From Herminiimonas arsenicoxydans (GTDB lineage: Bacteria > Pseudomonadota > Gammaproteobacteria > Burkholderiales > Burkholderiaceae_D), in NCBI GenBank assembly GCA_000026125.1, contig CU207211.1, positions 2,046,001-2,110,000 of the forward strand: a stretch of DNA of 64,000 nucleotides. Reading direction: 5' to 3'. Positions 774-20,231 of the stretch are shown here, piece after piece. The notes beneath the pieces are model-generated. The model was not told the DNA's origin. It was given only the letters and a program-made list of their open reading frames with translations, and made no database searches. The position numbers were made by a program, and so were the translations under genes. The first letter of the stretch is position 1. Every line of letters starts with the position of its first letter.

Positions 774-1604
774 TCAGCGTTTCAGCGCCGATGCGTGGTG
801 TGCCATATGCTCGCCAATGAAGCTGGCAATGAAGTAGTAGCTGTGGTCGTAGCCTGGGCGCAGATTCAACGTGAGCGGGTGCCCCGTCTCGTCGCAGGCT
901 TTGCGCAGCAGGTCGGGCTGAAGCTGGCTCTCCAGGAACTCGTCGCCCAAGCCCTGATCAACCAGCAACGGCAAACGCTCCTGCACGGTGCGAATCAGCT
1001 CCACGGTGTCGTACTGCTTCCACACTTCCCGATCGCTGCCCAGGTACGCCTCGAAGGCCTTGTGCCCCCAGGGAACCTGGGTGGGGGCGACGATGGGCGA
1101 GAAGGCCGAGACGCTTCGATAACGGCCCGGGTTGCGCAGGGCGATGACCAGAGCGCCGTGTCCTCCCATGGAATGGCCGCTGATGCTCCGCTCCGCTGTC
1201 ACGGGAAAGTGGGCCTCGATCAGCGCCGGCAATTCCTGCACGACGTAGTCGTACATCCGATGATTCGCAGCCCAGGGTTCCTGTGTGGCGTTGACGTAGA
1301 AACCCGCCCCCTGTCCGAGGTCATAGGCAGGATCGTCGGCAACGCCTTCGCCGCGAGCACTGCTATCGGGCGCGACGACGGCAATGCCATGTTCGGCCGC
1401 GTAGCGCTGGACGGCGGCCTTGGTGATGAAGTTCTGCTCGGTGCAGGTGAGGCCTGAAAGCCAGTACAGCACCGGCACCTTGCCGTGCTGTGCCTGCGGA
1501 GGCAGATAGACGCCGACCTTCATCGTGCAACCGAGCGTCGTGGATTCATGCTGATAAACGTCCTGCCAACCATCAAAGCTGGCGTGATGTTCGATGCGTT
1601 CCAT
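774..1604 (-). CDS. fghA: S-formylglutathione hydrolase
   Basis: Cytosolic serine esterase that hydrolyses S-formylglutathione to formate and glutathione, the second step of glutathione-dependent formaldehyde detoxification. It is 276 residues, the normal length for the FghA/FrmB (esterase D) family. The nucleophile elbow SGHSMGGHGAL holds the catalytic serine near residue 147, and GYDHSYYF near the C-terminus supplies the catalytic histidine. The oxyanion region SGLTCTEQNF is also family-typical. The ATG has GGAG eight bases upstream. It lies in the frmR-frmA operon but is separated from frmA by the VOC and DUF3422 genes, and is followed at 16 bp by the NADH dehydrogenase gene. Confidence 0.95.
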   Translation of the reverse strand: MERIEHHASFDGWQDVYQHESTTLGCTMKVGVYLPPQAQHGKVPVLYWLSGLTCTEQNFITKAAVQRYAAEHGIAVVAPDSSARGEGVADDPAYDLGQGAGFYVNATQEPWAANHRMYDYVVQELPALIEAHFPVTAERSISGHSMGGHGALVIALRNPGRYRSVSAFSPIVAPTQVPWGHKAFEAYLGSDREVWKQYDTVELIRTVQERLPLLVDQGLGDEFLESQLQPDLLRKACDETGHPLTLNLRPGYDHSYYFIASFIGEHMAHHASALKR

Positions 1605-1662: not shown

Positions 1663-2997
1663 TCAGGAAGATTTCTCTTCCGCTGCCGTGTCGCCGTGGG
1701 CGTGTCTGATCCTGCGCACGATCCACCAGATCGTCAGCATCACCGCAGGCACCAGAACCGCCATCACCGGCGCCACGCTGTCGTGAACCATCGGAATGCC
1801 CTTGAGCAAATAGCCGAGAAGACTCACGACGTAATAAGAAATTGCCGCGACCGACAGGCCTTCGACGGTTTGCTGAAGGCGCAATTGCATCTTGGCCCGG
1901 TTGTTCATCGACGCAAGCAGATCGCGGTTCTGGCGTTCAAGCTCGACGTCGATCCAGGAACGCAGCAACGCGATGGCCCGGGTCAGCTTGTCGGAGAGCT
2001 TGGTCTGGCGCTCCTTTACGGATTGGCATGTCCGCATGGCGGGAGCGATGCGACGCTGCAGGAAATCCGCCCAGGTGCAGTACCCGGATACGGCCTCTTC
2101 CGAAAGCGCTGCCAGCCTTTCCTCGACGATCTCGTAGTAGGCACGACTGGCGCCGAAGCGATAGAGATTCGCCGCAACGCCAGCTTCCAGTTCGGCAGCC
2201 AGGCCGGTCAATTCGGACAGCAGCACGTCGCTGTCGCGCCGTTCCACCAAGCTCGTACACATCTCGTCGGTGATCGCCGCAAGGCGCGACTCCATGCGCC
2301 GCAGCTCCGACGTCATCGACCGCGTCAACGGCAAGGACAGCAACGCCAAGGTACGGTAGGTCTCGATCTCCAGCAGACGTTGAGCCAGCGCACCCGCCCG
2401 CGCCGGGGTCAAATCGCGGGCAAGGACGAGGATCTGCGTCAGGCCATCCTCATCCTGTCGGAAGTCGGTGAGGATGGCGGCAGAGCCGTTCTCCACCAGC
2501 GAGTAGCACAGGCTGGCAGGATCGAAGCGATCGGCCTCCTTCTCCGTTTCCGGCGTCCATGGAAGAAGTCTCAAACGGATGCCGGATACGACCGGGCCGG
2601 GAGGAACAAATCCATGCTTGAACGGATTTTCGCCGCACGGCTCTCCCGTCTCGGAATCCAGCGAAGCGCACCAGAGATACGTTGAGAACTCGGTGTGCTT
2701 TTCACAGTGCAGGTCTCCTTCGTCCCATGTCACGCCGTGAAGCGGCGTAGCATGGTCGGGTTCGGCAACGCCGAAGCGATGAGACAACTCGCTCATCGCC
2801 ATCTGATCCTTGGCCTGGTCGCCTTCGGTCATGAAAGCGAGCTGCAATATGCCGCGCGGGGCCTGAATCAACAGATGCGGGCGCGCATGCACTTCACCCA
2901 CGGCGGCAGCACGATCGGTGTAGGCCGGCATGCCGTACACGGTGGCGGTCGGGGTGGGTTGTACGGTCGTCGTATTTATGTTGGCCGGCTCTTTCAT
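1663..2997 (-). CDS. DUF3422 family membrane-anchored protein
   Basis: Protein of 444 residues matching the DUF3422 family, whose function is unknown. The N-terminal two thirds are soluble, with conserved-looking stretches EVHARPHLLIQAPRGILQLAF and HGVTWDEGDLHCEKHTEFST, followed by a helical, probably coiled-coil region around residues 230-390. Two hydrophobic segments (SVAAISYYVVSLLGYLL and MAVLVPAVMLTIWWIV) near the C-terminus suggest membrane anchoring with a short basic cytoplasmic tail. I chose the ATG at 2997 over an upstream in-frame start because GAGG precedes it with good spacing. It sits inside the formaldehyde operon between the VOC gene and fghA, so a role in formaldehyde stress is possible but only inferred. 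Confidence 0.75.
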   Translation of the reverse strand: MKEPANINTTTVQPTPTATVYGMPAYTDRAAAVGEVHARPHLLIQAPRGILQLAFMTEGDQAKDQMAMSELSHRFGVAEPDHATPLHGVTWDEGDLHCEKHTEFSTYLWCASLDSETGEPCGENPFKHGFVPPGPVVSGIRLRLLPWTPETEKEADRFDPASLCYSLVENGSAAILTDFRQDEDGLTQILVLARDLTPARAGALAQRLLEIETYRTLALLSLPLTRSMTSELRRMESRLAAITDEMCTSLVERRDSDVLLSELTGLAAELEAGVAANLYRFGASRAYYEIVEERLAALSEEAVSGYCTWADFLQRRIAPAMRTCQSVKERQTKLSDKLTRAIALLRSWIDVELERQNRDLLASMNNRAKMQLRLQQTVEGLSVAAISYYVVSLLGYLLKGIPMVHDSVAPVMAVLVPAVMLTIWWIVRRIRHAHGDTAAEEKSS

Positions 2998-3179: not shown

Positions 3180-3578
3180 TCAGACGAAGGTGTACGAGCA
3201 GACCTTGTTGCCCGCCGGATCACGCAGGTAGGCCGCATAGGCACCCGGCAGGTGGCCACGCGGGCCAGGCTGGCCCTCGTCGGTGCCGCCTGCGGCAAGG
3301 CCGGCGGCGTGGAAGGCATCCACTTCGGCGGGAGTGGCGGCCGCAAAGCCGACCGTCACGCCGTTGCTCGAAGGCGCTTCACCATTGCCCGGACGGGCGA
3401 TGATGAAAGCCGGCTTTTCGCGACCGAAAAGCACCCATCCGTTGCCGAAAGGACCGAGGTTCTTGATGCCGAGAGCACCCAGGGCGGCGTCGTAGAACGC
3501 GGCCGACTTCTGGACGTCGGCGGCGCCGATGAAGACGTGCGAGAAGATGCCGTCGCCGGAAATGACAGGAGTGGACAT
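3180..3578 (-). CDS. VOC-superfamily (glyoxalase-like) protein
   Basis: Small cytosolic protein of 132 residues with the vicinal-oxygen-chelate fold. FSHVFIGAADVQKSAAFYDAAL at the N-terminus and AYLRDPAGNKVCSYTF at the C-terminus are the usual paired beta-alpha-beta-beta-beta signatures, including the DPAGN turn. It begins 43 bp downstream of frmA, with AGGA before the ATG, and is clearly in the frm operon. VOC genes are seen beside adhC/frmA in other proteobacteria; the substrate is not known, and handling of a glutathione adduct or another aldehyde is speculation. Candidate metal ligands cannot be fixed from sequence alone. Confidence 0.85.
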   Translation of the reverse strand: MSTPVISGDGIFSHVFIGAADVQKSAAFYDAALGALGIKNLGPFGNGWVLFGREKPAFIIARPGNGEAPSSNGVTVGFAAATPAEVDAFHAAGLAAGGTDEGQPGPRGHLPGAYAAYLRDPAGNKVCSYTFV

Positions 3579-3621: not shown

Positions 3622-4755
<1,134 letters not shown>

Positions 4756-4790: not shown

Positions 4791-5066
4791 CTACCGCAGA
4801 TAGGAGCGGACGATAGAGATGGTCTCGTCAATGGACTTGTTCTGCGAATCGCTCCTGATTTCGCTACTGGGAAACTCTTCCCGCAGATAGCTCTCCAGAA
4901 CCGTTGCCATCAATCCGTTGACTGCCCCACGAACGGCCGCAAGCTGCTGAAGAATTGCAGGACATTCCGCACCTGCATCAAGCGCTTGCTCAAGAGTCGC
5001 TACCTGACCTTTGATGCGCCTGATGCGCGTCAGTGCTTGCTTCTTTTCTTCCGGGCTGTGTGGCAT
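4791..5066 (-). CDS. frmR: Formaldehyde-responsive repressor FrmR (CsoR/RcnR family)
   Basis: All-helical DNA-binding repressor of 91 residues. In E. coli FrmR formaldehyde crosslinks the N-terminal Pro2 to Cys35; this protein has both, starting MPHSPEEKK with Cys35 in GAECPAILQQ. The RIRRIKGQV helix and AAVRGAVNGLM core are diagnostic of the family. I chose the ATG at 5066, not an in-frame start farther upstream, because it gives Pro2 and has AGAGGTG seven bases upstream, and because the longer version would overlap the promoter and operator. It is the first gene of the formaldehyde operon and very likely represses itself, frmA and the following genes. Confidence 0.93.
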   Translation of the reverse strand: MPHSPEEKKQALTRIRRIKGQVATLEQALDAGAECPAILQQLAAVRGAVNGLMATVLESYLREEFPSSEIRSDSQNKSIDETISIVRSYLR

Positions 5067-5097: not shown

Positions 5098-5122
5098 ATT
5101 ATACAATACTCCCCCATAGTAT
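5098..5122 (-). promoter_or_regulatory. frmR core promoter with FrmR/RcnR-type operator
   Basis: On the minus strand a perfect TATAAT (5103-5098) is preceded directly by TACT-AT-GGGGG-AGTA (5122-5106), an inverted repeat flanking a G-tract. This is the arrangement known for RcnR and FrmR operators (TACT-G6-AGTA type). Repressor bound here would cover the -10/-35 spacer. No good -35 hexamer is visible. Confidence 0.8.
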
Positions 5123-5238
5123 ATGCGGCCGAACTTCGCCACAAAATCTGTGCTCTTCGAGCACGCTTACAGGCTAGTACAGATTTGTTCCCAAGAAGCG
5201 CAAAACATTCAAATTAATGAATATTTCTTGCATGTATC

Positions 5239-5309
5239 GACAGCATCGGGGCAAGTTCAAAACTGGTCAAACTGGAAAAATCTATGCGCAGATAGACGTG
5301 GCCTATCTA
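5239..5309 (-). promoter_or_regulatory. Shared 71-bp promoter element, copy A (upstream of frmR)
   Basis: Reading on the minus strand, this stretch matches 12952-13022 (plus strand, upstream of fdhA) at 60 of 71 positions without gaps. It holds half-sites ATAG (5306-5303), CTAT (5295-5292), ATAG (5285-5282) and CAGT (5274-5271) spaced 7, 6 and 7, then TTGACC (5270-5265), a 17-bp spacer and GATGCT (5247-5242). It reads as an activator-dependent promoter. Transcription from it would cross the FrmR operator before frmR. Confidence 0.75.
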
Positions 5310-5348
5310 AGCCGACTCATCGAACTGAAGCTAACAAGATGAGACCGG

Positions 5349-6239
5349 CTAGGCGACCTGACGACCCGAATACCGAGCCTTCCGCAGTGCAGGCAACATC
5401 TGGCCGTCCCAGTCACGATCGACCGCAACCTGGGCCTGTTCCTGGTTTCGTTCGAGTGCTTCAACGTCAAGATCACCGATCGCCCATGTCTGCGTGCCGC
5501 AAGTCGTCGCGAGAATGCCATCATCCGGGAATCCACGATCCATTGGTGCATAGATCGTGGCCTCGCCAGTGTTCGTGTCCAACGCCGGACTCCAGTCAGC
5601 AGCTCCGGTCGTCACGGCCTGCGCGATGAACATTCGGTTCTCCAGCGCCCGCGCCATGCAGCCCACACGGACCCGGGTTGCACCTGCTTGGGTGTCGGTA
5701 CAGCTCGGGACCAGCAGCAGGCGCACTCCCGCCTCTCTCTGGGCTCGCACGGGCAATGGAAACTCACTGTCATAGCAAACAGCGATGCCGGCACGCACAC
5801 CGTTCAGGTCGAACACCTTGAGTTCGTCGCCACCTTCGATGACGCCGGTGTCCTTCTCGAACCCCGTCAACTGCAGTTTGTCCTGGTAGTCGCGTGTACC
5901 GTCAGGCGCAAACCACCAAGCTCGGTTGCGGTAGCGGTCCAAACCAACCTGGGTCAAAAACGTACCGGCCTGAATGGTCATGCACAACTCGCGCGACAGG
6001 TCGGCATACAGTGCCAGCCAAGCAGGCTGCAAGGCCTGCAGCGCGGCCAGAGAGGCGTTGAAATCACGGCGGATGCTAGGCTTGAACGTTGCAGCCAGTT
6101 CGAGGGATAGATACTCGGGCAACACGGCCAGTTCCGCTCCGCCACGGCGCGCCTCCTCCAGAACCAGTCGCTGCCGCGCAGCAAATGCCTCGAAGTCCGT
6201 CGGCTTACCCACTGCATATTTCGCAACTGCTACTTTCAC
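5349..6239 (-). CDS. Carbon-nitrogen hydrolase (nitrilase superfamily)
   Basis: Cytosolic amidase/nitrilase-fold hydrolase of 296 residues. The Glu-Lys-Cys triad is visible: Glu in LAVLPEYLSLE, Lys in DYQDKLQLTGFE and the nucleophile in AVCYDSEFPLPVR. The substrate cannot be named; an omega-amidase or aliphatic amidase role is possible. I chose the GTG at 6239, which overlaps the TGA of the upstream GNAT gene as GTGA and has GGAG eight bases before it, giving the family-typical start MKVAVAKYA, rather than a GTG nine codons earlier. It ends a three-gene minus-strand operon (SnoaL-GNAT-nitrilase). Confidence 0.85.
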   Translation of the reverse strand: MKVAVAKYAVGKPTDFEAFAARQRLVLEEARRGGAELAVLPEYLSLELAATFKPSIRRDFNASLAALQALQPAWLALYADLSRELCMTIQAGTFLTQVGLDRYRNRAWWFAPDGTRDYQDKLQLTGFEKDTGVIEGGDELKVFDLNGVRAGIAVCYDSEFPLPVRAQREAGVRLLLVPSCTDTQAGATRVRVGCMARALENRMFIAQAVTTGAADWSPALDTNTGEATIYAPMDRGFPDDGILATTCGTQTWAIGDLDVEALERNQEQAQVAVDRDWDGQMLPALRKARYSGRQVA

Positions 6240-6844
6240 TTCGCGTTCTCCAGAGAGTGCAGCCACATCGTGAGCGTCTGCTCGGTTTCGGTCGGCTCAC
6301 CCACCTCCTTCCAGGGCAGCGTAACCTTCATGTCCGACTGTCGCACGTAGCCACGACGGGTCCAGAAGGCATCATTACTGCGGTAGTTGGAAGGACGCCG
6401 GGGATCGTCGTCTGCTCGATCCACCGACGCGAACGATGTCCACTGCATGCCGCCCAACGAACGGGCATGCGCTTCGCGTTCGTCAAAGAAGCGATGGCCC
6501 AGGCCAAGGCCCCGAAAGGCTGGGAGCAGGACTGATTCGCCGCAGTAAAACACTGCCTCCATCGGGATTCCTCGATCGGCGAACGGTACCTGGAAGGCCG
6601 GCTCCGTATCGCCGAGCGGCAACCCCGTGGACGCACCCACAACCACGTCATCAGCGAGCACGAGCACCAACAGGCTGTCTGCCGAACGGGCGTACATGGA
6701 AAGGTAGTGCTTCTCGTATTCGATGTCGCCCTCGTACAGGTATGGAAAGCTGCGGAAGACCTTCGCCCGCAGATGTGCCACGGTGTCGAACCATTCGGCA
6801 ATGTCCGGCCCACGACGAACCAGCACCTGCACGTCGCTGGTCAT
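6236..6844 (-). CDS. GNAT-family N-acetyltransferase
   Basis: Protein of 202 residues with a GNAT fold. LLVLVLADDVVVGASTGLPL corresponds to the central strands and GESVLLPAFRGLGLGHRFFDERE to the acetyl-CoA pyrophosphate-binding loop, whose usual Q/RxxGxG/A appears as RGLGLG. The C-terminal FWTRRGY is also typical. The ATG at 6844 is one base downstream of the SnoaL gene's stop, so the genes are translationally coupled. Its stop overlaps the nitrilase start. GNAT and nitrilase genes recur as neighbours in bacteria, but the substrate is unknown. An in-frame longer version from 6943 would overlap the upstream gene by 98 bp and is disfavoured. Confidence 0.82.
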   Translation of the reverse strand: MTSDVQVLVRRGPDIAEWFDTVAHLRAKVFRSFPYLYEGDIEYEKHYLSMYARSADSLLVLVLADDVVVGASTGLPLGDTEPAFQVPFADRGIPMEAVFYCGESVLLPAFRGLGLGHRFFDEREAHARSLGGMQWTSFASVDRADDDPRRPSNYRSNDAFWTRRGYVRQSDMKVTLPWKEVGEPTETEQTLTMWLHSLENAK

Positions 6845-6845
6845 T

Positions 6846-7253
6846 TCAGGCGTCCCCTCCGACCTGTGCGATCCAGTCGCCGAGGTTGTAGTAGTTGGTG
6901 ACACGAGCGATCTTGCCATCGCGGATCTCGAAGAACGCGCCACCCGGCAGCACGTAGCGCTGGCCCTGGGCGTCCGGCAGCCCGTCGTCCGTCACCTTGT
7001 ATTCGCCATGCACCACGTACTCCGCGCCTGCGCGCAGGCCGTCGGCGCTGACCATCACCACGATCCCGCGGAGTTGCTCGCCATAGCAGCGGTCCATGCG
7101 CTGCAGGAAGGCGCGGAAGGCTTCGCGACCGACCTCACGAGCGCCCTGGTTCAAATCGTGCGCGACGTCATCGGTCAACATTGACAGCATGGCCTCGCGG
7201 TCACCGCGGTTGAAGGCGTCGTAGTAGGCAGTGATGAGAGTCGCAGCGTTCAT
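6846..7253 (-). CDS. SnoaL/NTF2-like nuclear transport factor 2 family protein
   Basis: Small alpha+beta-barrel protein of 135 residues. The opening AATLITAYYDAFNRGDREAMLSML, the DGLRAGAEYVVHGEY strand pair and the ending DGKIARVTNYYNLGDW are typical of SnoaL-like polyketide cyclase or ketosteroid-isomerase-related proteins. Function is unknown. The start at 7253 has GGA upstream and begins the family core; longer in-frame versions run into the promoter and LysR gene. It heads the SnoaL-GNAT-nitrilase operon and is divergent from the LysR gene at 7408, which probably regulates it. Confidence 0.82.
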   Translation of the reverse strand: MNAATLITAYYDAFNRGDREAMLSMLTDDVAHDLNQGAREVGREAFRAFLQRMDRCYGEQLRGIVVMVSADGLRAGAEYVVHGEYKVTDDGLPDAQGQRYVLPGGAFFEIRDGKIARVTNYYNLGDWIAQVGGDA

Positions 7254-7331
7254 TCGCGTTCCTTGTTGGGTTGTTCGGAGCGGAGCATTCCGGGGTGCTG
7301 TCAGTCTGGGCAACCGCGCCTCCCTTGTATA

Positions 7332-7358
7332 TGGAATTGTTGCGATTTTATAATTCCA
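7332..7358. promoter_or_regulatory. Probable LysR operator in the divergent promoter region
   Basis: TGGAATT (7332-7338) and AATTCCA (7352-7358) form a perfect 7-bp inverted repeat with 13 bp between them, an LTTR-type dyad containing T-N11-A-like spacing. A third related half-site (TGGAACAATT) follows at about 7364. It lies between the SnoaL operon and the LysR gene, where an autoregulated LysR protein would be expected to bind. Confidence 0.65.
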
Positions 7359-7407
7359 CCATCTGGAACAATTAACGAGCGGCGAAACCGACCATGAGGC
7401 GTGCGTC

Positions 7408-8313
7408 ATGAACAAGGAAATGGAACTACTGCGCATCTTTCGGGTGGCGGCCGAAAGCAGCAGTTTTCGCGATGCAGCCGTCCGGCTGGGGACTTCTCCG
7501 CAAGGTGTCACCCGTGCCATCCAGCAACTGGAGCAACACTACGGCGAGGTGTTGTTTCATCGAAGCACGCGCCAGGTGCGCATCACCGCCTTCGGCGAAG
7601 GGCTGTTAGACCAGGTGCGCCCGGCATTGGAGCGGTTCGAGGATCTGTGGCGAACGCCTGGCTCCGACCAGCAGGCATCCCTGTCCGGTACGGTTCGCAT
7701 CACCGCACCGCACAGCTTGGGCACCAGAGCGGTGCTGCCGGCACTGGAGCGCGTGGCCGCGCGTCATCCCGACATCACGCTGGATGTGCGCCTGTCCGAT
7801 CGCATCAGCAATACGGTTGACGAAGGGATTGACGTCGGAATCAGGGTCGGATTCATGCGTGATAGCCGCTTCGTCGCACGCAAGGCAGCCGACATGAAAC
7901 TTCCGATCGTTGCCGCTCCGCGCCTGATCAAGAAAGTGGGCGTACCTGAAAACATCGATGCGCTAAGCAGCCTGCCAGCTACCGTGGCCTTGGATATCAA
8001 TACCGGCCGTCCCTGGCCTTGGCACTTCAAGGCGGGACGCCAGTGGACACCTGCCGCACCCACTCTCGTCGCCGACAATGCCGACATGGAAATGGGAGCG
8101 GCGCTGGCCGGGATCGCGTTCGCGCAACTGGCGGACTACATGGCCGCCCCCTACATTGCCAGCGGGAAGCTCGTGCGAGTGTTGGAGAGCGAAGAACCTC
8201 CGGCATGGGGGTTGTACGTCTATCGGCCTCAGCGTGGCCCCATTCCGGGAAGGGTTCGAGCGGTATTTGATGAAATGCTGGTCGCCGTTGGATCGTTGCC
8301 AGCTTTGCGCTGA
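7408..8313 (+). CDS. LysR-family transcriptional regulator (divergent from SnoaL-GNAT-nitrilase operon)
   Basis: LysR-type regulator of 301 residues. The N-terminal winged helix (residues 1-62) contains FRDAAVRLGTSPQGVTRAIQ as the recognition helix region and VLFHRSTRQVRITAFGE as the wing. The effector domain starts near residue 90 (GTVRITAPHSLGTRAVLPAL) and is of the CrgA/AaeR-like subfamily. ATG 7408 has GAGG eight bases upstream. The gene is divergent from the SnoaL operon, with a palindrome at 7332-7358 between them; by the usual LysR pattern it controls that operon and itself. Confidence 0.9.
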   Translation: MNKEMELLRIFRVAAESSSFRDAAVRLGTSPQGVTRAIQQLEQHYGEVLFHRSTRQVRITAFGEGLLDQVRPALERFEDLWRTPGSDQQASLSGTVRITAPHSLGTRAVLPALERVAARHPDITLDVRLSDRISNTVDEGIDVGIRVGFMRDSRFVARKAADMKLPIVAAPRLIKKVGVPENIDALSSLPATVALDINTGRPWPWHFKAGRQWTPAAPTLVADNADMEMGAALAGIAFAQLADYMAAPYIASGKLVRVLESEEPPAWGLYVYRPQRGPIPGRVRAVFDEMLVAVGSLPALR

Positions 8314-8463
8314 CACGTCGCAAGACACTGAAAGGCACACGCCCTGGAAAGCGGGGCACTGAGCCTTGGCGGCTCGCCCCTCCGGTTGAATGATGAGCCG
8401 ACCGTCTGCCCGCTTGCGCCAGGTGCAGATCGGTCGGCCATGCAACCCTATGCCGGCAAACGA

Positions 8464-10440
8464 TTAGATGTAAATGAATTGCCGGTACAAACCATCCAAC
8501 TGACGACGAATATCTTCGACGCGCTGCTCGTCACCGGTATCGGTAAATTCGAGTAGCTGCTGTTCCTTGGCAGTGATCTGATCGCAAAGGTCGGACAAAT
8601 TCTCGCAGAAAGCCTCGGAGTGAACGGTGGGCTCCTCCGTATTCGTCTCTTCTCCTGCTAGTTTTCGCACAGACGAGGCCGGAGAAATCCCATTTTCCTC
8701 GTTAAAGGCAATTTGAAGCTGCCTGCGCCTATTGGTTTCATCGATCGCCTGTTTCATCGCCGGAGTCACCGCGTCGGCGTACAAGATCGCCTTGCCGTTT
8801 TCATTCCGAGCGACTCGACCTATCATCTGAATGAGAGCATGGGCCGAACGCAAGAATCCTGCACGGTCTGCATCGAGAATAGCAACCAATGATGCCTCTG
8901 GAATATCCAGCCCTTCGCGCAAAAGACTAATCCCAATCAAAACATCGAACTCTCCTGCGCGCAGGCCATTGATGATCTCAACACGATCCTCCGCTTTTAT
9001 GTCCGAATGCATGTAGCGCGCTCGAATCCCGTTGTCCGTCAAGAAATCCGTTAGCTCTTCTGCACTGACCTTCGTCAGCGTAGTCACGAGCACGCGATTT
9101 TTCTTCTTCACGCACTTCGATATTTCGGCAAGCAGGTCATCTATGTATCCGTCCGCTTTCCGCACCTCAACCTTGGGATCAAGCAGTCCCGTTGGTCTGA
9201 TAACTTGTTCGACAACCCTGTCTTTCGACACCCTCAGCTCGTAGTCTCCCGGAGTAGCGGAAACAAAGATGGTCTGAGGCTTGACCTTCTCAAATTCACC
9301 AAAGTTCAACGGGCGATTGTTCTTAGACGAAGGCAAGCGGAACCCGTAATCTATCAACGTCTCCTTGCGCGCCTGATCCCCCCGGTACATTGCGGATATC
9401 TGTGGCACCATGACGTGGGATTCATCGACGAACAGAAGCCCATCTTTCGGCAGGTAATCCAGCAATGTGATCGGAGGCGAGGCCGGGTCCCGTTCGCTGA
9501 AGTAGCAGGAATAATTTTCCATGCCCGAACAATAGCCTACCTCGCGCATCATCTCCACGTCATGCGTGATCCGCTCGTACAGCCTGTTTGCCTCGACCAA
9601 GCGATTATTCCTGTTCAGCTCGGCAACCCGCTCTTCCATATCAGCGAGTATCTTCTTGGACGCGGAATCTATTTTATTCGTGGGCGGTGCAAAAAGCGTC
9701 TTTGGCGAAACCAAGTAATGGTCAATTGCCCCAAGCGTTTTACCTGTAACAGGGTCTAGCCATTGAACAGACGCAACAGAGTCATCCAGCAGTTCCACCC
9801 GAACTGCCCTATGCTCGGAATCAGCAGGAAAGATATCGATCACATCACCTTGAGCGCGAAACGTTGCACGTTTGAGAGTGCGCTCAGTGCGATCATATTG
9901 CAGCAGAGCCAAACGACGAATCAGCTCTCTCTGGTTTAGTTTGACCCCAGGGGACAGAGCGATCTGCAACGCTCGGTACGCCTCCGGGTCACCCAGGCCG
10001 TAGATTGAAGACACCGAAGCGACGACGATCACATCGCGGCGCTCAATCAAGGATTTGGTCGTGGACAGGCGTAGGCGCTCAAGGTGATCGTTGATGGCCG
10101 AGTCCTTTGGAATGAAACGATCGGTGCCCGGCATATAAATCTCGGGCTGAAAATAATCGTAGTAGGAAACGAAGTACTCGACAGCATTCTCAGGAAAGAA
10201 GTGCTTCATTTCACCATAAAGCTGCGCGGTCAATGTCTTGTTAGGAGCCAAGATCAACGTGGGCCGCTTCAGACGATGAATCACATTGGCCATCGTAAAG
10301 GTCTTACCAGAGCCGGTGATACCCTTCAGCGTCTGGTGTGTCGCACCTTCTTCTATGTCCGATAGCAGGCGCGCTATCGCCTCTGGCTGGTCCCCCGCCG
10401 GCGTATAGCTGGAGTGCAGAATGAACGTACCGGTTGACAT
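8464..10440 (-). CDS. uvrB: Excinuclease ABC subunit B (island-borne UvrB)
   Basis: DNA-damage-recognition helicase-like subunit of nucleotide excision repair; 658 residues, full length. Walker A GITGSGKT is near residue 41, the damage-verifying beta-hairpin YYDYFQPEIYMPGTDRFIP near residue 93, the Walker B LLFVDESHV near residue 333, helicase motif VI QMIGRVARN, and a C-terminal UVR (UvrC-binding) helix pair. AGGAG precedes the ATG by seven bases. It lies inside the island and looks more AT-rich than the flanking cargo, so I take it as an acquired copy, probably additional to a housekeeping uvrB that is not in this window. No clear LexA box is visible upstream. Confidence 0.93.
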   Translation of the reverse strand: MSTGTFILHSSYTPAGDQPEAIARLLSDIEEGATHQTLKGITGSGKTFTMANVIHRLKRPTLILAPNKTLTAQLYGEMKHFFPENAVEYFVSYYDYFQPEIYMPGTDRFIPKDSAINDHLERLRLSTTKSLIERRDVIVVASVSSIYGLGDPEAYRALQIALSPGVKLNQRELIRRLALLQYDRTERTLKRATFRAQGDVIDIFPADSEHRAVRVELLDDSVASVQWLDPVTGKTLGAIDHYLVSPKTLFAPPTNKIDSASKKILADMEERVAELNRNNRLVEANRLYERITHDVEMMREVGYCSGMENYSCYFSERDPASPPITLLDYLPKDGLLFVDESHVMVPQISAMYRGDQARKETLIDYGFRLPSSKNNRPLNFGEFEKVKPQTIFVSATPGDYELRVSKDRVVEQVIRPTGLLDPKVEVRKADGYIDDLLAEISKCVKKKNRVLVTTLTKVSAEELTDFLTDNGIRARYMHSDIKAEDRVEIINGLRAGEFDVLIGISLLREGLDIPEASLVAILDADRAGFLRSAHALIQMIGRVARNENGKAILYADAVTPAMKQAIDETNRRRQLQIAFNEENGISPASSVRKLAGEETNTEEPTVHSEAFCENLSDLCDQITAKEQQLLEFTDTGDEQRVEDIRRQLDGLYRQFIYI

Positions 10441-10814
10441 TAGATATCTCCTAATTGAGCTACTTCAATTTGTCCTGATGTATCGGCTATTTCGGAAGAC
10501 CTATAGCAGTACCAAACTGGGGTGTAAATGACGGCGATCCTGCCACGCCCCACCTGGGCGTAGGCGTCGCCAACATGATAGCCCAACACACGGGCGGGCT
10601 TCCCAGTGCATATCCGCCGAGCGCCACGACGTCAGCCAGCGGCCCGTCTGCCAATGCACCTGGAGCTACTCGCCTCGTTCAGCGCCGACATCGAGTCGTG
10701 GCGGGCGAGATTGCTCTGTACGCCCCATGTGTGGCGGCGGCTCCCGCCGATGCGCGCCTTTGCCTCTCTCAGCCATCAAGACGAGACGCCGGAGGCGTGG
10801 AGCTACGTCACCTG
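10441..10814. other. 374-bp gap without a supported gene
   Basis: Holds the uvrB promoter region. A 70-codon plus-strand frame at 10606-10818 has protein-like composition and might be a relic of a mobile-element gene, but it has no recognisable motif, no clear ribosome site and overlaps the end of the DUF488 gene. Confidence 0.4.
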
Positions 10815-11246
10815 CTAAAGATGCACGATCTCAACATTCGGCCATTTGCCTGCAAGGTACTCGGCCACTAGCCTCCGATGGCAGTGATGGGGCTTGTCTT
10901 CGCTGCAAAGCAGGCAACTGTTATCAATCTTTTCTTTATCGATTGACTCAATCTTTCGGGACGACATTAAATCCAGAAACTTCCTCGCGTAGATATCCCA
11001 ATCTCCCCCTTTTATTTTATATGCCTCGAACATGTCCTTGGTTGGAGCAAGTGCTGGCAGGTGCTCATATTCCATCCCACACAACGCCTCGGAAAAATAC
11101 CGAAGATCCTCGCGCTTTGCGAAGCCGGCCAATTGCGAAACATTATTCAGACGAACATCGACTAGGCGTTTGGCACCAGAATCACCTAATTTGGTGAAGA
11201 AGGATCGCGCGGAGGTCTTAGTGAATCCAATCGTGAATATCTTCAT
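10815..11246 (-). CDS. DUF488 family protein
   Basis: Protein of 143 residues of the DUF488 family (unknown function). Family signatures are the opening IFTIGFTKTSARSFF, VDVRLNNVSQLAGFAK, and the C-terminal cysteine/histidine motif CLLCSEDKPHHCHRRLVAEYL, which may bind metal or form a redox site. I chose the ATG at 11246, ten codons inside a longer frame, because it begins the family core. It is transcribed toward uvrB but 374 bp away, so the two are probably not coupled. DUF488 genes are common on genomic islands and next to restriction or stress genes. Confidence 0.85.
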   Translation of the reverse strand: MKIFTIGFTKTSARSFFTKLGDSGAKRLVDVRLNNVSQLAGFAKREDLRYFSEALCGMEYEHLPALAPTKDMFEAYKIKGGDWDIYARKFLDLMSSRKIESIDKEKIDNSCLLCSEDKPHHCHRRLVAEYLAGKWPNVEIVHL

Positions 11247-11738
11247 CTGCCTTACTCCACTCGTTCCTTCATCCATAAATGGCTGTTATTGATCTGCCGC
11301 CAGGTACGCCCGTCAATCGCAGCCAAGGAAACGCCGGGGGCATGGCGTACTAGCTACTCCACAACGGCCACGGCAGGCTCCATTCTCTGGCCGCTTCAAC
11401 GACTCGCGGCCACGACCCGAGCAGCTCAAGAGCTTAGCACCGCCTTTTGCGGTTGCGTGCTTCACCACTCCCGCTTCTTCCCTTCCAGAACGCGCCAACT
11501 GCTAAGCTACATGAGGACGACTCGCCCTACAGCGCGAAGCACCTGTGTTCGCGCTATTGGCTGTCCCGTGCGTTGTGGTGCTGGCCGCCGATGACGAGCC
11601 GAGCCTACTGAATGGGCACTGCGCACAACAGCCTTTCATGCGTGCCACCTGCGTGATCAAGGTTGAACGCAGATCGAAGCGTGCACAGGTTTTTTCATAA
11701 AAGTATAAAATTCAATCAACTCTATCAGAAGAAAATCT
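11247..11738. other. 492-bp gap without a supported gene
   Basis: The stretch separates the divergent DUF488 and LysR genes. Short open frames exist on both strands, with no ribosome sites or motifs I recognise. The minus-strand frame at 11313-11498 reads like a fragment of a coding sequence, so an eroded gene is possible. The last 60 bp are AT-rich and probably hold the LysR promoter. Confidence 0.35.
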
Positions 11739-12680
11739 ATGATCGTAAGAAACTTTGAATACTTGCTTGCTTTGCACCGTGAAGGCCATTTTGGCAACGC
11801 GGCAAAAAGCTGCAATGTTTCTCAGCCGACACTCTCCGCGGGCATCAAGCAATTGGAGGAAGACATGGGTGTCGAGATCGTGCGTCATGGCCGACGCTAC
11901 GACGGGCTCACTTCTGAAGGAATGCGCGTACTGTCTTGGGCTCAGCAGATGTATGACGACTGCAAAGGACTGGAGCGAGAAATCTCCGCACTACGGCGGG
12001 GTATAGAGGGGAAATTCCGGCTAGGGATACTCCCAGGAACTGCCGGCGTAGCACCCACATTAAGCATCGCCCTTGCCGAAAAAACACCTTTACTTCAACA
12101 ATCAATTCTGGTCTCCGGCGCTTCTTCCCTGCTGCAGGCGATTCGAGAAAACAATCTGGATATCGCACTCATGCATTTGGAGGATATTCCAGGGGAAGAC
12201 TTCGATACTCACCTTCTGTACCGTGAACGCATTTTCCTTTTTCACGCCGCTAGAACACAGCAACCCCGAAGCACAACGTGGGACCATGTTCTTAATAGAC
12301 AACTGTGCCTGCTGAACTCGGCAGTACCTGAATCCATTCAAGATAGACTGACGCAATGTACCGCACAGACTATTCGCACTGATTCAATTGACGTGCTATC
12401 GGCACACGTGGCGACAGGAAAATATTCGGCAGTTCTTCCGCAATCTCTCGCCGGCCAACTCGCACACATTCCGAATCTCCACGCAATCGGTATCAGTGGA
12501 CCAATGTCACACTCAAATGTCGGATTCGTTGCTGGGAAAAATGCGTTCGAGGCACCGTCATCGCACGCATTGCTCGAAATGGTGCACACCCCAGAACTGG
12601 CCGCCGCTCTTCAATCCGTTATATCGATCCATCGTCGGTTCCAGCCCAAAGCAGACTCATCCCAAAGCCCCTTGAAATAG
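11739..12680 (+). CDS. OxyR-like LysR-family regulator upstream of fdhA
   Basis: LysR-type regulator of 313 residues. Its winged helix NFEYLLALHREGHFGNAA followed by CNVSQPTLSAGIKQLEEDMG is strikingly like that of OxyR (DLEYLVALAEHRHF...CHVSQPTLSGQI), which predicts ATAG-N7-CTAT-type binding. Similar regulators accompany formate dehydrogenase genes in Burkholderiales (from memory). In the effector domain the region equivalent to the OxyR redox loop (RQLCLLNSAVPESIQ) lacks the GHC peroxidatic cysteine, so the inducer is probably not peroxide; I infer formaldehyde or formate. It precedes fdhA in the same orientation, with the shared promoter element B between them. Confidence 0.85.
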   Translation: MIVRNFEYLLALHREGHFGNAAKSCNVSQPTLSAGIKQLEEDMGVEIVRHGRRYDGLTSEGMRVLSWAQQMYDDCKGLEREISALRRGIEGKFRLGILPGTAGVAPTLSIALAEKTPLLQQSILVSGASSLLQAIRENNLDIALMHLEDIPGEDFDTHLLYRERIFLFHAARTQQPRSTTWDHVLNRQLCLLNSAVPESIQDRLTQCTAQTIRTDSIDVLSAHVATGKYSAVLPQSLAGQLAHIPNLHAIGISGPMSHSNVGFVAGKNAFEAPSSHALLEMVHTPELAAALQSVISIHRRFQPKADSSQSPLK

Positions 12681-12951
12681 CGAGTCTCGAAGAGCAACGC
12701 TGTATTGCTTCAACCAGGCAAAGATGGCAGGCACGCCGTGTGCGCCGCTAACAGGCGCCACGTGCTGAGCAACCCATCGAAGGCCACCAGGTCTAGGGGC
12801 AACACGGGCGACAGGAGTACCTGCTGCATGCGGCCTCCTCATGTCTCGCTGGGTCAAGCTGACTATTCCTAGATCAAGCTAGGAGGCGCGATGTAGTGAT
12901 GATCGTTGTCCTCTCCCAGCTAGGAGACGAGCACGGCTCGACGAGCCCGTG
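12681..12951. other. Non-coding stretch with small palindromes between LysR gene and promoter element B
   Basis: No supported gene. A minus-strand frame at 12657-12857 looks protein-like but overlaps the LysR 3' end and has no recognised motif. TCCTAG-atcaag-CTAGGA at 12867-12884 and a hairpin near 12932-12951 (CACGGCTCG against CGAGCCCGTG, one bulge) are possible terminator or operator structures. Confidence 0.4.
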
Positions 12952-13022
12952 TAGATAGATCGTGTCTATCTGCACATAGATTATTCCAGTTTGACCACTT
13001 CTGAGCTTGATCCGATGCTGTC
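12952..13022 (+). promoter_or_regulatory. Shared 71-bp promoter element, copy B (upstream of fdhA)
   Basis: Matches 5309-5239 of the minus strand at 60/71 positions. Half-sites ATAG (12955-12958), CTAT (12966-12969), ATAG (12976-12979) and CAGT (12987-12990) are spaced 7, 6 and 7. The last abuts TTGACC (12991-12996), followed by a 17-bp spacer and GATGCT (13014-13019), whose A2 and T6 match a sigma-70 -10 box. An LTTR tetramer next to the -35 box is the usual activating layout. The predicted fdhA leader is about 120 nt. Confidence 0.75.
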
Positions 13023-13146: not shown

Positions 13147-14361
13147 ATGACTCCGACCGGTAACCGAATCGTGACTTTCGAGAAGCCCTTGGAAATGAAG
13201 GTCAACACCTTCAAATTTCCAGAGCTGATAACCCCTCAAGGGAAAAGTGCACCCCACGGCGCTATCCTCAAAATAGTTACCACAAATATCTGTGGCAGCG
13301 ACCTTCACATTTATCGCGGTTCGTTTGCTGTTCCCAAGGGAATGACCATGGGCCATGAAATGACCGGCGAAGTGATCGAAGTGGGATCAGACGTCGAAGT
13401 CGTGAAGAAGGGCGACATCGTTTCCGTCCCCTTCAATGTGGGTTGTGGGCGTTGCTACAACTGCAAGCATATGCGCTCCGATGTATGCGAGAACACCAAC
13501 CCCGAAATCGACTGCGGAGCCTACGGGTTCAACCTCGGTGGCTGGACGGGGGGCCAAGGTGATTATCTCTTCGTACCGTATGCGGATTTCAATCTCCTGC
13601 GCTTTCCTGACAAGGATGCCGCCATGGAAAAGATCCGCGACCTGACCCTTCTCTCTGACGTACTACCCACAGCTTTCCATGGGTTCGCTGGCCCAGACTG
13701 GCCAGCCGCACCGGCCTACGTCGTCGGCGAAAACATCCTGATCTTCGGTGCCGGGCCGGTCGGCAGAGCGGGTGCCGCCTGCGCCAGACTTCTGGGTGCA
13801 GGCGCCATCATCGTTGCCGATTACATTCAAGAGCGGCTGGACCTTCTCAAGCCACACGGCGTGGAAACCATCAACCTTTCCGACGGCGTGCCGATCGAGG
13901 AACATCTCGAACGCATTACCGGGCACAGGGAGGTGGATCGCGTCATCGACTATGTTGGTGTGGACTGCCGCGGGTTTGGCGCGGAGGCTGACAAGATCGT
14001 GGAGAGCGCTGTTACCAACGCAATGCTCAAATATGTCCGCTTCGGCGGAATGACCAGCACGGTCGGTGTGTACTGCGCAAACCCGATCTCGAAAGACCCG
14101 AAAGCCAAGAAAGGCCATATGGATCTGGAATGGTCCAACGCCTGGATCAAGTCGCCGCGAATGTCGGCTGGTCAATCCCCGACGGCCAATTACAACCACG
14201 CGTTAATGCGGGCGATACTGAACGATCGCATGCCTTACCTTTCGCCGATGATGAACACTAAGTTCATCAAGCTCGAAGACGCGCCCGCCGCGTACAAAGA
14301 GTTCGACGCGGGTTCTGCATACAAGTACGTCATCGACCCGCATGGTTCAGTGCGGCAGTAA
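13147..14361 (+). CDS. fdhA: Glutathione-independent formaldehyde dehydrogenase
   Basis: NAD-dependent zinc medium-chain dehydrogenase (404 residues) that oxidises free formaldehyde to formate, like the Pseudomonas putida enzyme of about 399 residues, with which it shares the ordered motifs TNICGSDLH, GHEMTGEVIE, VSVPFNVGCGRCYNCK, GGWTGGQGDY and VPYADFNLL. Catalytic zinc ligands lie in NICGSD and GHE; the structural zinc is held by the CGRCYNCKHMRSDVC cluster; the NAD fold is at IFGAGPVGRAGAACA. The ATG at 13147 has GAGGTG upstream and is preferred to an upstream ATG at 13117. It is a second, parallel formaldehyde route to frmA/fghA on the same island. Confidence 0.93.
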   Translation: MTPTGNRIVTFEKPLEMKVNTFKFPELITPQGKSAPHGAILKIVTTNICGSDLHIYRGSFAVPKGMTMGHEMTGEVIEVGSDVEVVKKGDIVSVPFNVGCGRCYNCKHMRSDVCENTNPEIDCGAYGFNLGGWTGGQGDYLFVPYADFNLLRFPDKDAAMEKIRDLTLLSDVLPTAFHGFAGPDWPAAPAYVVGENILIFGAGPVGRAGAACARLLGAGAIIVADYIQERLDLLKPHGVETINLSDGVPIEEHLERITGHREVDRVIDYVGVDCRGFGAEADKIVESAVTNAMLKYVRFGGMTSTVGVYCANPISKDPKAKKGHMDLEWSNAWIKSPRMSAGQSPTANYNHALMRAILNDRMPYLSPMMNTKFIKLEDAPAAYKEFDAGSAYKYVIDPHGSVRQ

Positions 14362-14864
14362 GTATCCGGCGCGGGCTACGCATCAGGATGTCTCACACTT
14401 TCTGGTGAGAGACATTCTGGCTCCTCTAGTCTCCGGCCAGCAACTGAAGCCGGCGAATATTTTCGCCGGCATTTGTCTGCTGCCCCAAGGCGTTGTGATT
14501 TTGACGGGGTGCTTGCCTTGGCTCGGGCCAGGAGCAGAACCTCAGCAATCCGCAGGTGATGATCAACCGCAGGCGTGTTCGAGCGCCTGGTTCGCAATCG
14601 GTCAAGGGTCGGACGGAGAAGATGCGCGGCATCCATTGATGTGCGTGGCTGAACATAGCCTTCGCCTGATCCTGACCACCCCACGGACTTGATCAGTCTC
14701 GCCTGGTGTTGTGCCGGCCTCGGGCCATCGCACGATCAGCCCAGCCCTGGCTCATTTAGCCAGAAGTTTCCAAAGACGTGGCCGAACTCGCCGCCGCCGA
14801 AATGGCAGTCACTTCTATAGGGAGATAGCACAGTGTTGGATAAGTCGGAACGGGAGGGTGGCCT
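14362..14864. other. 503-bp gap after fdhA
   Basis: Apart from the hairpin at 14449-14470, I see no supported gene. Minus-strand open frames (for instance 14376-14684) have mixed composition and no motif. The final 60 bp should contain the promoter of the LysR gene at 14865. Confidence 0.4.
14449..14470 (+). terminator. Hairpin downstream of fdhA, probable terminator
   Basis: GCCGGCGAA (14449-14457) pairs perfectly with TTCGCCGGC (14462-14470) around TATT, followed by ATTTGT, a weak T-tract. Confidence 0.5.
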
Positions 14865-15755
14865 ATGGAGCTGCGCCATCTTCGCTGCTTCGTAGTTCTT
14901 GCTGAGGAGCTACATTTCACGCGGGCGGCTGAGCGCTTGCATATCGAACAACCACCGCTATCACGAGCCATCAAGGAACTTGAGGACGAGTTGGGCGTAG
15001 TGCTCTTCGACCGAAACCGACGAGGAACAGTTCTGACGGCGGCGGGTGCGGTCTTCTTGCAAGATGTACGCCGTCTATTCACTGTGCTGGAACAGGCTCG
15101 TGAAAATGCCAAGGCTGTGGCATCGGGCTTGCGCGGTAGCCTGCGCATCGCAGTATCAGATGGAGCTATCGATCCACGACTGTCGGCATTTCTGGCTCGT
15201 TGTCGCGCCGAGGAGCCGGAGATCGAAATACGCTTGTCAGAAGTGCCTCTGGCAGAGCAAGTGCGCGGTTTGCGCTCGGGCGACTTCATGATCGGGTTCG
15301 CGCACACGGCCGATGTCGGCGACGGTATCGCTGCCGAGGCAATCTGGCACGACCCGCTGGTGATTGCTGTGCCAGCTCGGCACTCATTGCTCACCTACAA
15401 GGAGGTGCCACTTCAAGAACTCCAAGGCCATCCACTTGTCCTGTGCGACCCGCAGGTATGCGAGGGTTATTGCCGCGAACTCAAGCGGCTGCTCAACACG
15501 TTGGAGCACAAGCTGAATGTTGTCGAGGAAGTATCCTCACTGGACATGATGCTCACCTTGGTCGGCGCCGGCTACGGCATCGGCTTCATGACGGCGACCA
15601 AGATTCCCATCTCTCAACGGCCGGATGTGGTGATCCGCCCCTTGGCGATGGATTCTGCCGTGATCACGACCTACCTGCTTCGGCCCGACGGCAGCAATTT
15701 ATCGGCTTCGGTAGAGCGATTTGTCGTTCGCCTACGCGACTCATCGGACGGTTGA
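14865..15755 (+). CDS. LysR-family transcriptional regulator
   Basis: LysR regulator of 296 residues with a canonical start MELRHLRCFVVLAEELHFTRAAERLHI and recognition helix QPPLSRAIKELEDELG. The effector domain (from GSLRIAVSDGAIDPRL, residue 92) is the BenM/CatM-like type 2 fold. ATG has GAGGG upstream. It is followed by an oppositely oriented XRE gene and then by a protein that resembles only its effector domain; the shared positions include RAEEPE, the S-x-x-MM...GYG-GF/L stretch and TYL-RP. LysR plus XRE pairs of this kind are often found in integrative conjugative elements. Confidence 0.9.
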   Translation: MELRHLRCFVVLAEELHFTRAAERLHIEQPPLSRAIKELEDELGVVLFDRNRRGTVLTAAGAVFLQDVRRLFTVLEQARENAKAVASGLRGSLRIAVSDGAIDPRLSAFLARCRAEEPEIEIRLSEVPLAEQVRGLRSGDFMIGFAHTADVGDGIAAEAIWHDPLVIAVPARHSLLTYKEVPLQELQGHPLVLCDPQVCEGYCRELKRLLNTLEHKLNVVEEVSSLDMMLTLVGAGYGIGFMTATKIPISQRPDVVIRPLAMDSAVITTYLLRPDGSNLSASVERFVVRLRDSSDG

Positions 15756-15777: not shown

Positions 15778-16071
15778 TCAGGGATCGGTGTCGGCACGCA
15801 GATTGCGTTCGGTCGCCGTCATCAGGTCAGCCGCGCTTATTCCGAGTGCCGTAGAAATTTTCAGTATGAGCGGAAGCGTGGGCACGTGCTCACCACGCTC
15901 GATCTTACCCATGTGAGAACGCGAAATGCTTGCCCGAGATGCGAACTCGTCTTGCGCGACTCCTTGAGCGACGCGCGCAGCGCGCACGGCCTGTCCGAAG
16001 GCTAACGCCGACTCGGATTCATACGTCGATGTGCCAGAAGGACGGCCTGGCTGAATTGTTGATTTCTGCAT
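15778..16071 (-). CDS. XRE-family helix-turn-helix regulator
   Basis: Small regulator of 97 residues (from the ATG at 16071). The HTH spans about residues 27-82: FGQAVRAARVAQGVAQDEFA, ASISRSHMGKIERGEHVPTL and LKISTALGISAADLM are a textbook XRE/lambda-repressor-like domain, with a disordered N-terminal tail of about 25 residues. It is convergent with the LysR gene (22 bp apart) and divergent from the effector-domain-only gene. No strong ribosome site is seen; a GTG at 16098 would add nine residues. Possible role: lysogeny-like control of the island. Confidence 0.82.
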   Translation of the reverse strand: MQKSTIQPGRPSGTSTYESESALAFGQAVRAARVAQGVAQDEFASRASISRSHMGKIERGEHVPTLPLILKISTALGISAADLMTATERNLRADTDP

Positions 16072-16190
16072 TAGCAGAAGCGTCAAACAATCTGCCACAA
16101 TTAACCACGTTAAAGATAACGACGTTAAACTTCACTCTTTACTGCGACGCTGGTTTGCCTTTCTGGACAGATCGCTTATTGGGGGCCCTC

Positions 16191-16844
16191 ATGCATGACG
16201 CCACCAGCCAGTTTTCCCATTTCAGGCTTGCTATCGCACCTGGAGTGCCATCCTCTTGCCTCATAACGCTTCTTGCCCTTCAGCGCGCAGAGGAGCCTGA
16301 AGTCACCATCGCGTTCTTTGAGACCTCGGGCGACGACCTGATGACGGGCCTTGAGGAAGGCCGCTACGACGCCGGAATCTCGCTTCGGAACGCTGGTGCT
16401 CCAGCCGTGAAAAGCCAGCCGCTCTGGGTCGAGAACGTGGCCGTTGCAATGCCGCTGGGGTCCCCCTTACTTGCCCAGGCGAAGATCACGCTTGCCGAGC
16501 TTCTGGACTATCCGGTGTTTCGCTGGCCGGCGGAGGCATGCCTACTGCTCGATCAGCGACTGTCTTCCCTTCCGTTGAGCCAACAGAGCGTGCAGCATGT
16601 GACTTCGTTCGAGATGATGGCGCTTTGGGTCACCGCTGGCTACGGTGTGGGGCTCTCGGCGCAATCGCGCATGGAGCGTGCCCATGCGTGGGGGATCACT
16701 ATGCGACCGCTTTCAGACGGCCCCTACGAGATCGTGACATACCTGCAGCGGCCCCACGGACGAGCCAATGCTGTTTCTGAGCGGTTCGAGCACAGGGCAA
16801 TGCTGGTTGCCAGGGATAGGGCGGCTTGCTCGAATATCCCATAG
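16191..16844 (+). CDS. LysR effector-domain-only protein (no HTH)
   Basis: About 217 residues covering only a LysR substrate-binding domain: FRLAIAPGVPSSCLITLLAL, VTIAFFETSGDDLMTGLEEGRYDAG, and SFEMMALWVTAGYGVGLSAQ. It is clearly paralogous to the effector domain of the LysR protein encoded at 14865. The open frame extends upstream to 15930, but that part is antisense to the XRE gene and its translation is Arg-rich and unlike a LysR HTH, so I start at the ATG at 16191 after GGGGG. It could be a decoy or heterodimer partner for the full-length LysR, or a gene that has lost its HTH; neither can be decided here. Confidence 0.65.
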   Translation: MHDATSQFSHFRLAIAPGVPSSCLITLLALQRAEEPEVTIAFFETSGDDLMTGLEEGRYDAGISLRNAGAPAVKSQPLWVENVAVAMPLGSPLLAQAKITLAELLDYPVFRWPAEACLLLDQRLSSLPLSQQSVQHVTSFEMMALWVTAGYGVGLSAQSRMERAHAWGITMRPLSDGPYEIVTYLQRPHGRANAVSERFEHRAMLVARDRAACSNIP

Positions 16845-20096: not shown

Positions 20097-20138
20097 CAAT
20101 GACCTACAGACCCCAGTAGAAGTCTGTGGATCAAAATT

Positions 20139-20214
20139 TGGAGCGGGAGAAGAGTCTCGAACTCTCGACCTCAACCTTGGCAAGGTTGCGCTCTACCAAC
20201 TGAGCTACTCCCGC
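20139..20214 (-). tRNA. glyT: tRNA-Gly (anticodon GCC)
   Basis: A 76-nt cloverleaf reads on the minus strand: acceptor GCGGGAG pairs with CTCCCGC, D-loop AGCTCAGTTGGTAGAGC, anticodon stem-loop CAACCTTGCCAAGGTTG with GCC at the centre, T-arm GTTCGAGAC, and encoded CCA at 20141-20139. It is a single-copy-looking gene with its own promoter, and is the likely attachment site of the island to its left. The gene symbol is a guess by anticodon. Confidence 0.95.
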
Positions 20215-20231
20215 ATCAACAACAGGTGCGT

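Follow-up and report, generated by a model that had tools for sequence, protein, structure and literature searches.

In this work, we have analysed a window of 64,000 nucleotides from the genome of Herminiimonas arsenicoxydans (contig CU207211.1, positions 2,046,001 to 2,110,000), which carries an island of formaldehyde genes, and in particular a 71-bp promoter-like element that stands before two of its gene rows. Copy A of the element lies ahead of the frm row (frmR-frmA-VOC-DUF3422-frmB) of the glutathione-dependent route, and copy B ahead of fdhA, assigned to the glutathione-independent route, with the gene of a LysR-type regulator, LysR1, directly upstream (Table 1). The FrmR equivalog is encoded beside frmA, as expected of an FrmR system. 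The name fdhA is the annotation of close relatives, and the substrate of its product is putative: FdhA scores 425.3 bits against TIGR02819, below the curated cut-off of 636.95, and its plasmid relatives (82-99.8% identity) are annotated as glutathione-independent formaldehyde dehydrogenases. The ATG given in Table 1 is its likely start, having AGAGGTG ahead and being the annotated start of the Aeromonas copy.

Table 1. Coordinates in the window of the two element copies and of the genes and sites around them
Feature	Position	Strand	Details
Element copy A, before frmR-frmA	5239..5309	-	half-sites 5306-5303, 5295-5292, 5285-5282, 5274-5271
Copy A promoter boxes		-	-35 TTGACC 5270-5265; -10 GATGCT 5247-5242; predicted start ~5235
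Element copy B, before fdhA	12952..13022	+	half-sites 12955-12958, 12966-12969, 12976-12979, 12987-12990
Copy B promoter boxes		+	-35 TTGACC 12991-12996; -10 GATGCT 13014-13019; predicted start ~13026
LysR1, LysR-type regulator, 313 amino acids	11739..12680	+	HTH_1 and LysR_substrate domains; adjoins the element
fdhA, glutathione-independent formaldehyde dehydrogenase by annotation	13147..14361	+	longest frame from 13117
frmR, formaldehyde-responsive repressor	4791..5066	-	NF008464 156.9 bits, cut-off 133
frmA, S-(hydroxymethyl)glutathione dehydrogenase	3622..4731	-	TIGR02818 725.8 bits, cut-off 543.95
VOC/glyoxalase-fold protein, frm row	3180..3578	-	PF00903, PF18029
DUF3422 protein, frm row	1663..2997	-	PF11902
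frmB/fghA, S-formylglutathione hydrolase, frm row	774..1604	-	TIGR02821 418.2 bits, cut-off 281.7
FrmR-operator-like dyad ATACTATGGGGGAGTAT (5122-5106) with TATAAT (5103-5098)	5098..5122	-	proposed proximal frmR promoter

The initial annotation of this DNA had described the two copies as identical at 60 of 71 positions without gaps, each oriented towards its own gene and each with four half-sites beside TTGACC-N17-GATGCT, and all of this was confirmed. At the base composition of the window, the binomial tail for such a pair is 1.7e-25, and 6.9e-16 pairs are expected across the 64000 x 64000 position pairs; a 46-letter pattern of the element, with up to three mismatches, finds the two copies only, and none in 100 shuffles. 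Chance similarity was rejected on both counts. BLAST comparison with the copies of relatives lengthens the repeat to 85-87 bp (5239-5323 and 12936/12937-13022), the outer extension, in copy A to 5323 and in copy B to 12936/12937, being weak. The genome itself (3,424,307 bases, one contig) holds just two clear copies: BLAST returned these and two 16-base matches at an E value of 0.27, and a relaxed pattern gave two extra sites with 2-3 mismatches, against four matches for the reversed control. No island-protein match lies near the extra sites, which were taken as chance given the control. In the window, a three-mismatch match to the half-site pattern is found on the minus strand at 14814-14839, right before the LysR gene that starts at 14865.

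The general layout of the element is ATAG-N7-CTAT-N6-ATAG-N7-[CG]AGT set directly against TTGnnn-N17-nATnnT, a half-site spacing of 7-6-7 in which the fourth half-site (CAGT) is imperfect. Taking the transcript start as predicted 7 bases past the -10 box, and counting all offsets from it, ATAG occupies -71/-68, CTAT -60/-57, ATAG -50/-47, CAGT -39/-36, TTGACC -35/-30 and GATGCT -12/-7, with the dyads centred at -64 and -43. The first pair of half-sites forms a clean dyad, TAG-N7-CTA, with the T-N11-A of LysR-type sites, and the second an imperfect one. LysR-type activators bind a recognition dyad near -65 and a second site that reaches the -35 box, and by its sequence the layout of the element is that of such a promoter, with a recognition and an activation site. 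Seventeen rows aligned without gaps keep AtAG, CtATCT, ATAGA, TTC, AGTTTG and the -10 AT..T; the linker of 6 between the pairs is found in all 17, and the A, T and T of the -10 box in 11 of the 11 distinct rows recounted.

Where does the element occur in other genomes? An exact 33-base pattern, scanned over 84,980 genomes (species), matched 11 sites in seven genomes (three Pseudomonas, Thauera, Pandoraea, Pusillimonas and Verticiella), all within the island, seven before frmR and four before fdhA. In the three genomes with a match before frmR only, the fdhA copy is also present with one base change inside the pattern, so all seven carry both copies; an Aeromonas caviae plasmid has both as well. 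With up to two mismatches, 398 Pseudomonadaceae genomes yielded six sites in three genomes, half of them before frmR and half before fdhA, and the 65 genomes from the genus to which genome G751 belongs likewise six sites in three genomes: three of these stand before frmR, two before fdhA and one before a ZIP-gshA-frmR row (cluster L053). The reversed control pattern had no match in either set, and the exact pattern was absent from the viral contigs scanned. Occurrence before many unrelated genes, which would have spoken against a dedicated switch, was not seen among the sites found in these collections, nor did the element behave as a general repeat or a common promoter: the matches stand before frmR or fdhA, and one before ZIP-gshA-frmR. 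In the Verticiella island (L052), the DUF488 gene lies in pieces across about 2.9 kb (5939-8828, plus strand), suggesting an insertion, and an 80-base stretch of our window beyond the integrase gene (20138-20218) matches the Aeromonas plasmid at several places within 27282-27858 of L016, at a spacing of about 100 bases.

In the Pseudomonadaceae set and in the genus of G751, LysR1 was found in three genomes each, the same three that have the element, and in the sample of the own order in 1 of 399 genomes, which is H. arsenicoxydans itself. By tblastn, 13 plasmid records have a LysR1 relative, and they include all 11 with a close FdhA; no match to the lysR1-fdhA stretch was found in Escherichia coli genomes. 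The gene adjoins the element in the islands of integrative-conjugative-element type, in clusters L049 and L053 and in alphaproteobacterial plasmids. Genome G751 has two LysR1 clusters, the usual island (L048) and a shorter frm-only cluster (L049). In L049 (LysR1 87% identical), a single element lies between the divergent lysR1 and frmR, and no fdhA match was found within the 18 kb fetched. In L053 (LysR1 61%), lysR1 is followed by the element, a ZIP transporter gene, gshA, frmR, frmA, DUF3422 and frmB, the ZIP transporter and gshA (5883-8628, minus strand) being named from their open reading frames. We regard these two clusters as especially informative: as read from their sequences, the downstream genes vary and the regulator stays constant.

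We inspected the gene rows of the Aeromonas plasmid and eight others. Those of Shinella, of two Sphingomonas without insertion, of Sphingomonas sp. gentR, of Methylobacterium and of Sphingobium read frmR-lysR1-fdhA-frmA-VOC-fghA-oxidoreductase-DUF3422-uvrB; in those of gentR, Methylobacterium and Sphingobium, lysR1 is followed by an SDR gene. In two Kozakia plasmids, lysR1 lies ahead of fdhA. In gentR, the SDR gene separates lysR1 from the element, which remains with fdhA. Of the 43 core bases of the element, 29 are matched before fdhA in Shinella, 26 in S. hankookensis and 27 in gentR, and 32 in the L053 element; none of 200 shuffles reached any of these values. The LysR1 proteins of these four are 53-62% identical to ours, and the half-sites and their spacing are the same.

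LysR1 shows both domains of a LysR-type regulator past the cut-offs (N-terminal HTH_1, PF00126, 51.1 bits; C-terminal LysR_substrate, PF03466, 53.4 bits), and its AlphaFold model has a mean predicted local distance difference score (pLDDT) of 89.8. Its nearest solved relative is the OxyR of Pseudomonas aeruginosa (4x6g; profile E value 7.4e-28), which also ranks first in a Foldseek search, with a template-modelling (TM) score of about 0.53. In OxyR proteins, the regulatory domain has a redox cysteine motif, GHCxRDQ, which reads GHDFRDQ in 4x6g, a C199D mutant. The sequence of LysR1 contains neither GHC nor RDQ and scores 73.4 bits against the OxyR equivalog NF008361, below the cut-off of 329, and on these grounds LysR1 is not classed as an OxyR. 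Relatives down to about 45-50% identity are found among the best 120 of 489 in the protein search. In 47 aligned sequences, Cys25 and Cys75 are kept in all, Cys190 in 46 and Cys207 in 22.

We propose that the element serves as operator-promoter for LysR1, the regulator encoded on the island itself, which would activate both formaldehyde routes, a reading that we consider likely from the sequence evidence. A LysR1 tetramer would bind ATAG-N7-CTAT near -64 as its recognition site and ATAG-N7-[CG]AGT near -43 as its activation site, just upstream of a -35/-10 pair that would depend on the activator. On a signal that is probably formaldehyde or its thiol adduct, LysR1 would recruit RNA polymerase to fdhA and to the distal promoter of the frm row, while FrmR would still repress that row at a proximal promoter, so that fdhA would answer to a single input and the frm row to two. 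The sequences themselves show the two copies, the kept half-sites, their fixed spacing, the kept -35 and -10 positions and the linkage to lysR1; that LysR1 binds and activates, on which signal, from which transcript starts and with this two-promoter logic is what we infer. OxyR, the closest solved relative of LysR1, reads ATAG half-sites (PMC5720770), which we count in favour of LysR1 as the reader. The initial annotation had called the element a common switch for both routes without naming a regulator; the shared element stands, and the evidence points to LysR1 as the missing part.

That the element drives both routes, as was also claimed, holds in that a conserved promoter-like element is shared, and requires correction for frmR-frmA: the element is likely not their sole driver, given the conserved FrmR-operator-like dyad and its neighbouring TATAAT, which separate copy A from frmR (Table 1). 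The dyad is the same or similar in L050, L016, L049 and L053, and similar dyads lie ahead of frmA in alphaproteobacterial plasmids; all of them are putative FrmR operators. Formaldehyde relieves FrmR repression in Salmonella and E. coli, according to the available parts of the published accounts (PMC4528141; PMC8879981); the letters of the FrmR operator do not appear in that of PMC4528141. From the predicted starts, the leader would be about 169 nucleotides for frmR and about 121 for fdhA. Between copy A and the FrmR-like site lies a perfect, terminator-like 6-bp hairpin (GTGCTC-GAA-GAGCAC; 5150-5164, minus strand), imperfect in its L049 counterpart, which could weaken the distal frmR transcript. 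The frmR leader also contains a 34-base tract outside the element (5181-5214, minus strand) that is strongly conserved with L049. As read from the sequence, two promoters probably serve the frm row, of which the distal one would depend on LysR1 and have a leader that crosses the FrmR site; fdhA would have the LysR1 promoter only.

Several observations weigh against LysR1 control of both routes. A sigma-70 consensus scan found no promoter at either element, the -10 box being weak, and with the hairpin and the FrmR-like site in between, the distal promoter may add little to frmR expression. In the alphaproteobacterial plasmids, the DNA is no better than shuffles either before frmA (three plasmids: Shinella, S. 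hankookensis and gentR) or before frmR (two plasmids). The two Kozakia plasmids carry a LysR1 relative (46-50% identity) beside fdhA, and the element there is not significant (22 of 43 core bases, which 24 and 30 of 200 shuffles reach). Finally, the perfect co-occurrence of element and LysR1 (three of 398 genomes and three of 65), like that of FdhA and LysR1 in the plasmids, may reflect mere physical linkage.

Some of these points would also fit a copy A that is a non-functional leftover, with only the fdhA copy mattering. This is suggested by the proximal FrmR-type promoter and the hairpin and by the alphaproteobacterial frmA genes that lack the element. We regard it as unlikely, since the invariant positions are retained by the frmR-type copies of every island variant and the frmR copy of L049, 59/71 identical to copy A, lies beside lysR1; but the leader tract is conserved too, so that conservation ahead of frmR is not specific to the element. 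If instead another LysR-type protein of the island read the element, three genes that share the island with both copies would be available (7408-8313, 14865-15755 and 15930-16844). None of them gave a tblastn match at 1e-12 in the element-bearing clusters L035-L039, L042 and L049, and L053 gives only a 31% match to the first, whereas LysR1 is present in every one of these clusters; the frame at 15930-16844 moreover lacks an HTH domain, and we hold this alternative to be very improbable. That last frame (plus strand) is LysR-like, with a substrate domain and no HTH domain in Pfam, and its relative in Aeromonas carries the annotation of a substrate-binding domain protein.

Reading of the element by the host OxyR, which would tie the formaldehyde genes to the peroxide response, appears improbable. 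The element is missing from 395 of 398 Pseudomonadaceae genomes, most of which are expected to have OxyR, and it adjoins lysR1 in islands of differing gene order. The half-sites do resemble those of OxyR operators, which are described as pairs of ATAG-N7-CTAT set 7 bases (PMC5720770) or 7-10 bases (PMC8787470) apart in the parts of those papers available, and the four-half-site layout (ATAG-N7-CTAT-N7-ATAG-N7-CTAT) is alike, but the linker of the element is 6 in 17 of 17 rows, one base shorter and outside the 7-10 of OxyR sites (PMC8787470). The targets proposed here for LysR1, formaldehyde genes, also differ from OxyR regulons.

Was the element duplicated within the island? In a 71-base comparison, it is the downstream gene, rather than the island, by which the copies cluster: the frmR-type rows from other islands match copy A at 68/71 and copy B at 61/71, and fdhA-type rows match copy B at 68-70/71 and copy A at 57-59/71. 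The two copies therefore predate the spread of the island variants. Copy A differs from copy B at 11 of 71 positions and from the L049 element at 12. The duplication given in the initial annotation is plausible and unproven, as single elements exist before fdhA in the alphaproteobacterial plasmids and beside frmR in L049; judging by these sequences, two modules that were under a single regulator beforehand may have come together in the island.

Among known systems, FrmR-frmRA of E. coli and Salmonella has in common with the island frmR, frmA, frmB and an FrmR-operator-like dyad before frmR, and the island has, further upstream, a proposed LysR-type promoter of the kind that also precedes fdhA. 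In Pseudomonas sp. NGC7, a LysR-type activator, GalR, likewise drives an fdhA gene (galBCD-fdhA2), but, in the available part of that report, with induction in syringic and gallic acid catabolism, other binding sites and a constitutive frmA (PMC12314914). Going by their descriptions, ICEPni1 VR4 (PMC7466150) and cluster C30 (PMC7156236) are alike in content, with formaldehyde and Uvr genes on integrative conjugative elements; the available parts of these accounts cover genes and transfer and not the promoter or regulator of the element. Our search of the open-licence literature gave no description of the promoter pair or of LysR1, and the main text of a 2022 review of formaldehyde metabolism uses the word LysR 0 times. 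A LysR-type regulon of two promoters is of an ordinary kind; what is new is that one proposed LysR switch would serve both formaldehyde routes, on top of control by FrmR.

What would this mean for the islands? Environmental and hospital bacteria have been described with islands of such content on elements that can be transferred, in the available parts of PMC7466150 and PMC7156236. If our proposal is true, the regulator and the site of mobile formaldehyde-detoxification islands are named, and the glutathione-dependent and glutathione-independent routes are switched on together; the L053 element, which leads a row that includes the ZIP transporter gene and gshA, would fit a supply of glutathione and zinc to FrmA. 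LysR1 would then also be a candidate formaldehyde sensor. A cysteine-based response to formaldehyde is our conjecture, and we suggest, as a tentative and rather doubtful extension, that LysR1 may be an OxyR-related cysteine sensor that directly detects formaldehyde or else S-hydroxymethylglutathione, the candidate residues being Cys190 together with Cys25 or Cys75, and that would run these mobile islands together with FrmR, two independent sensors acting on one operon.

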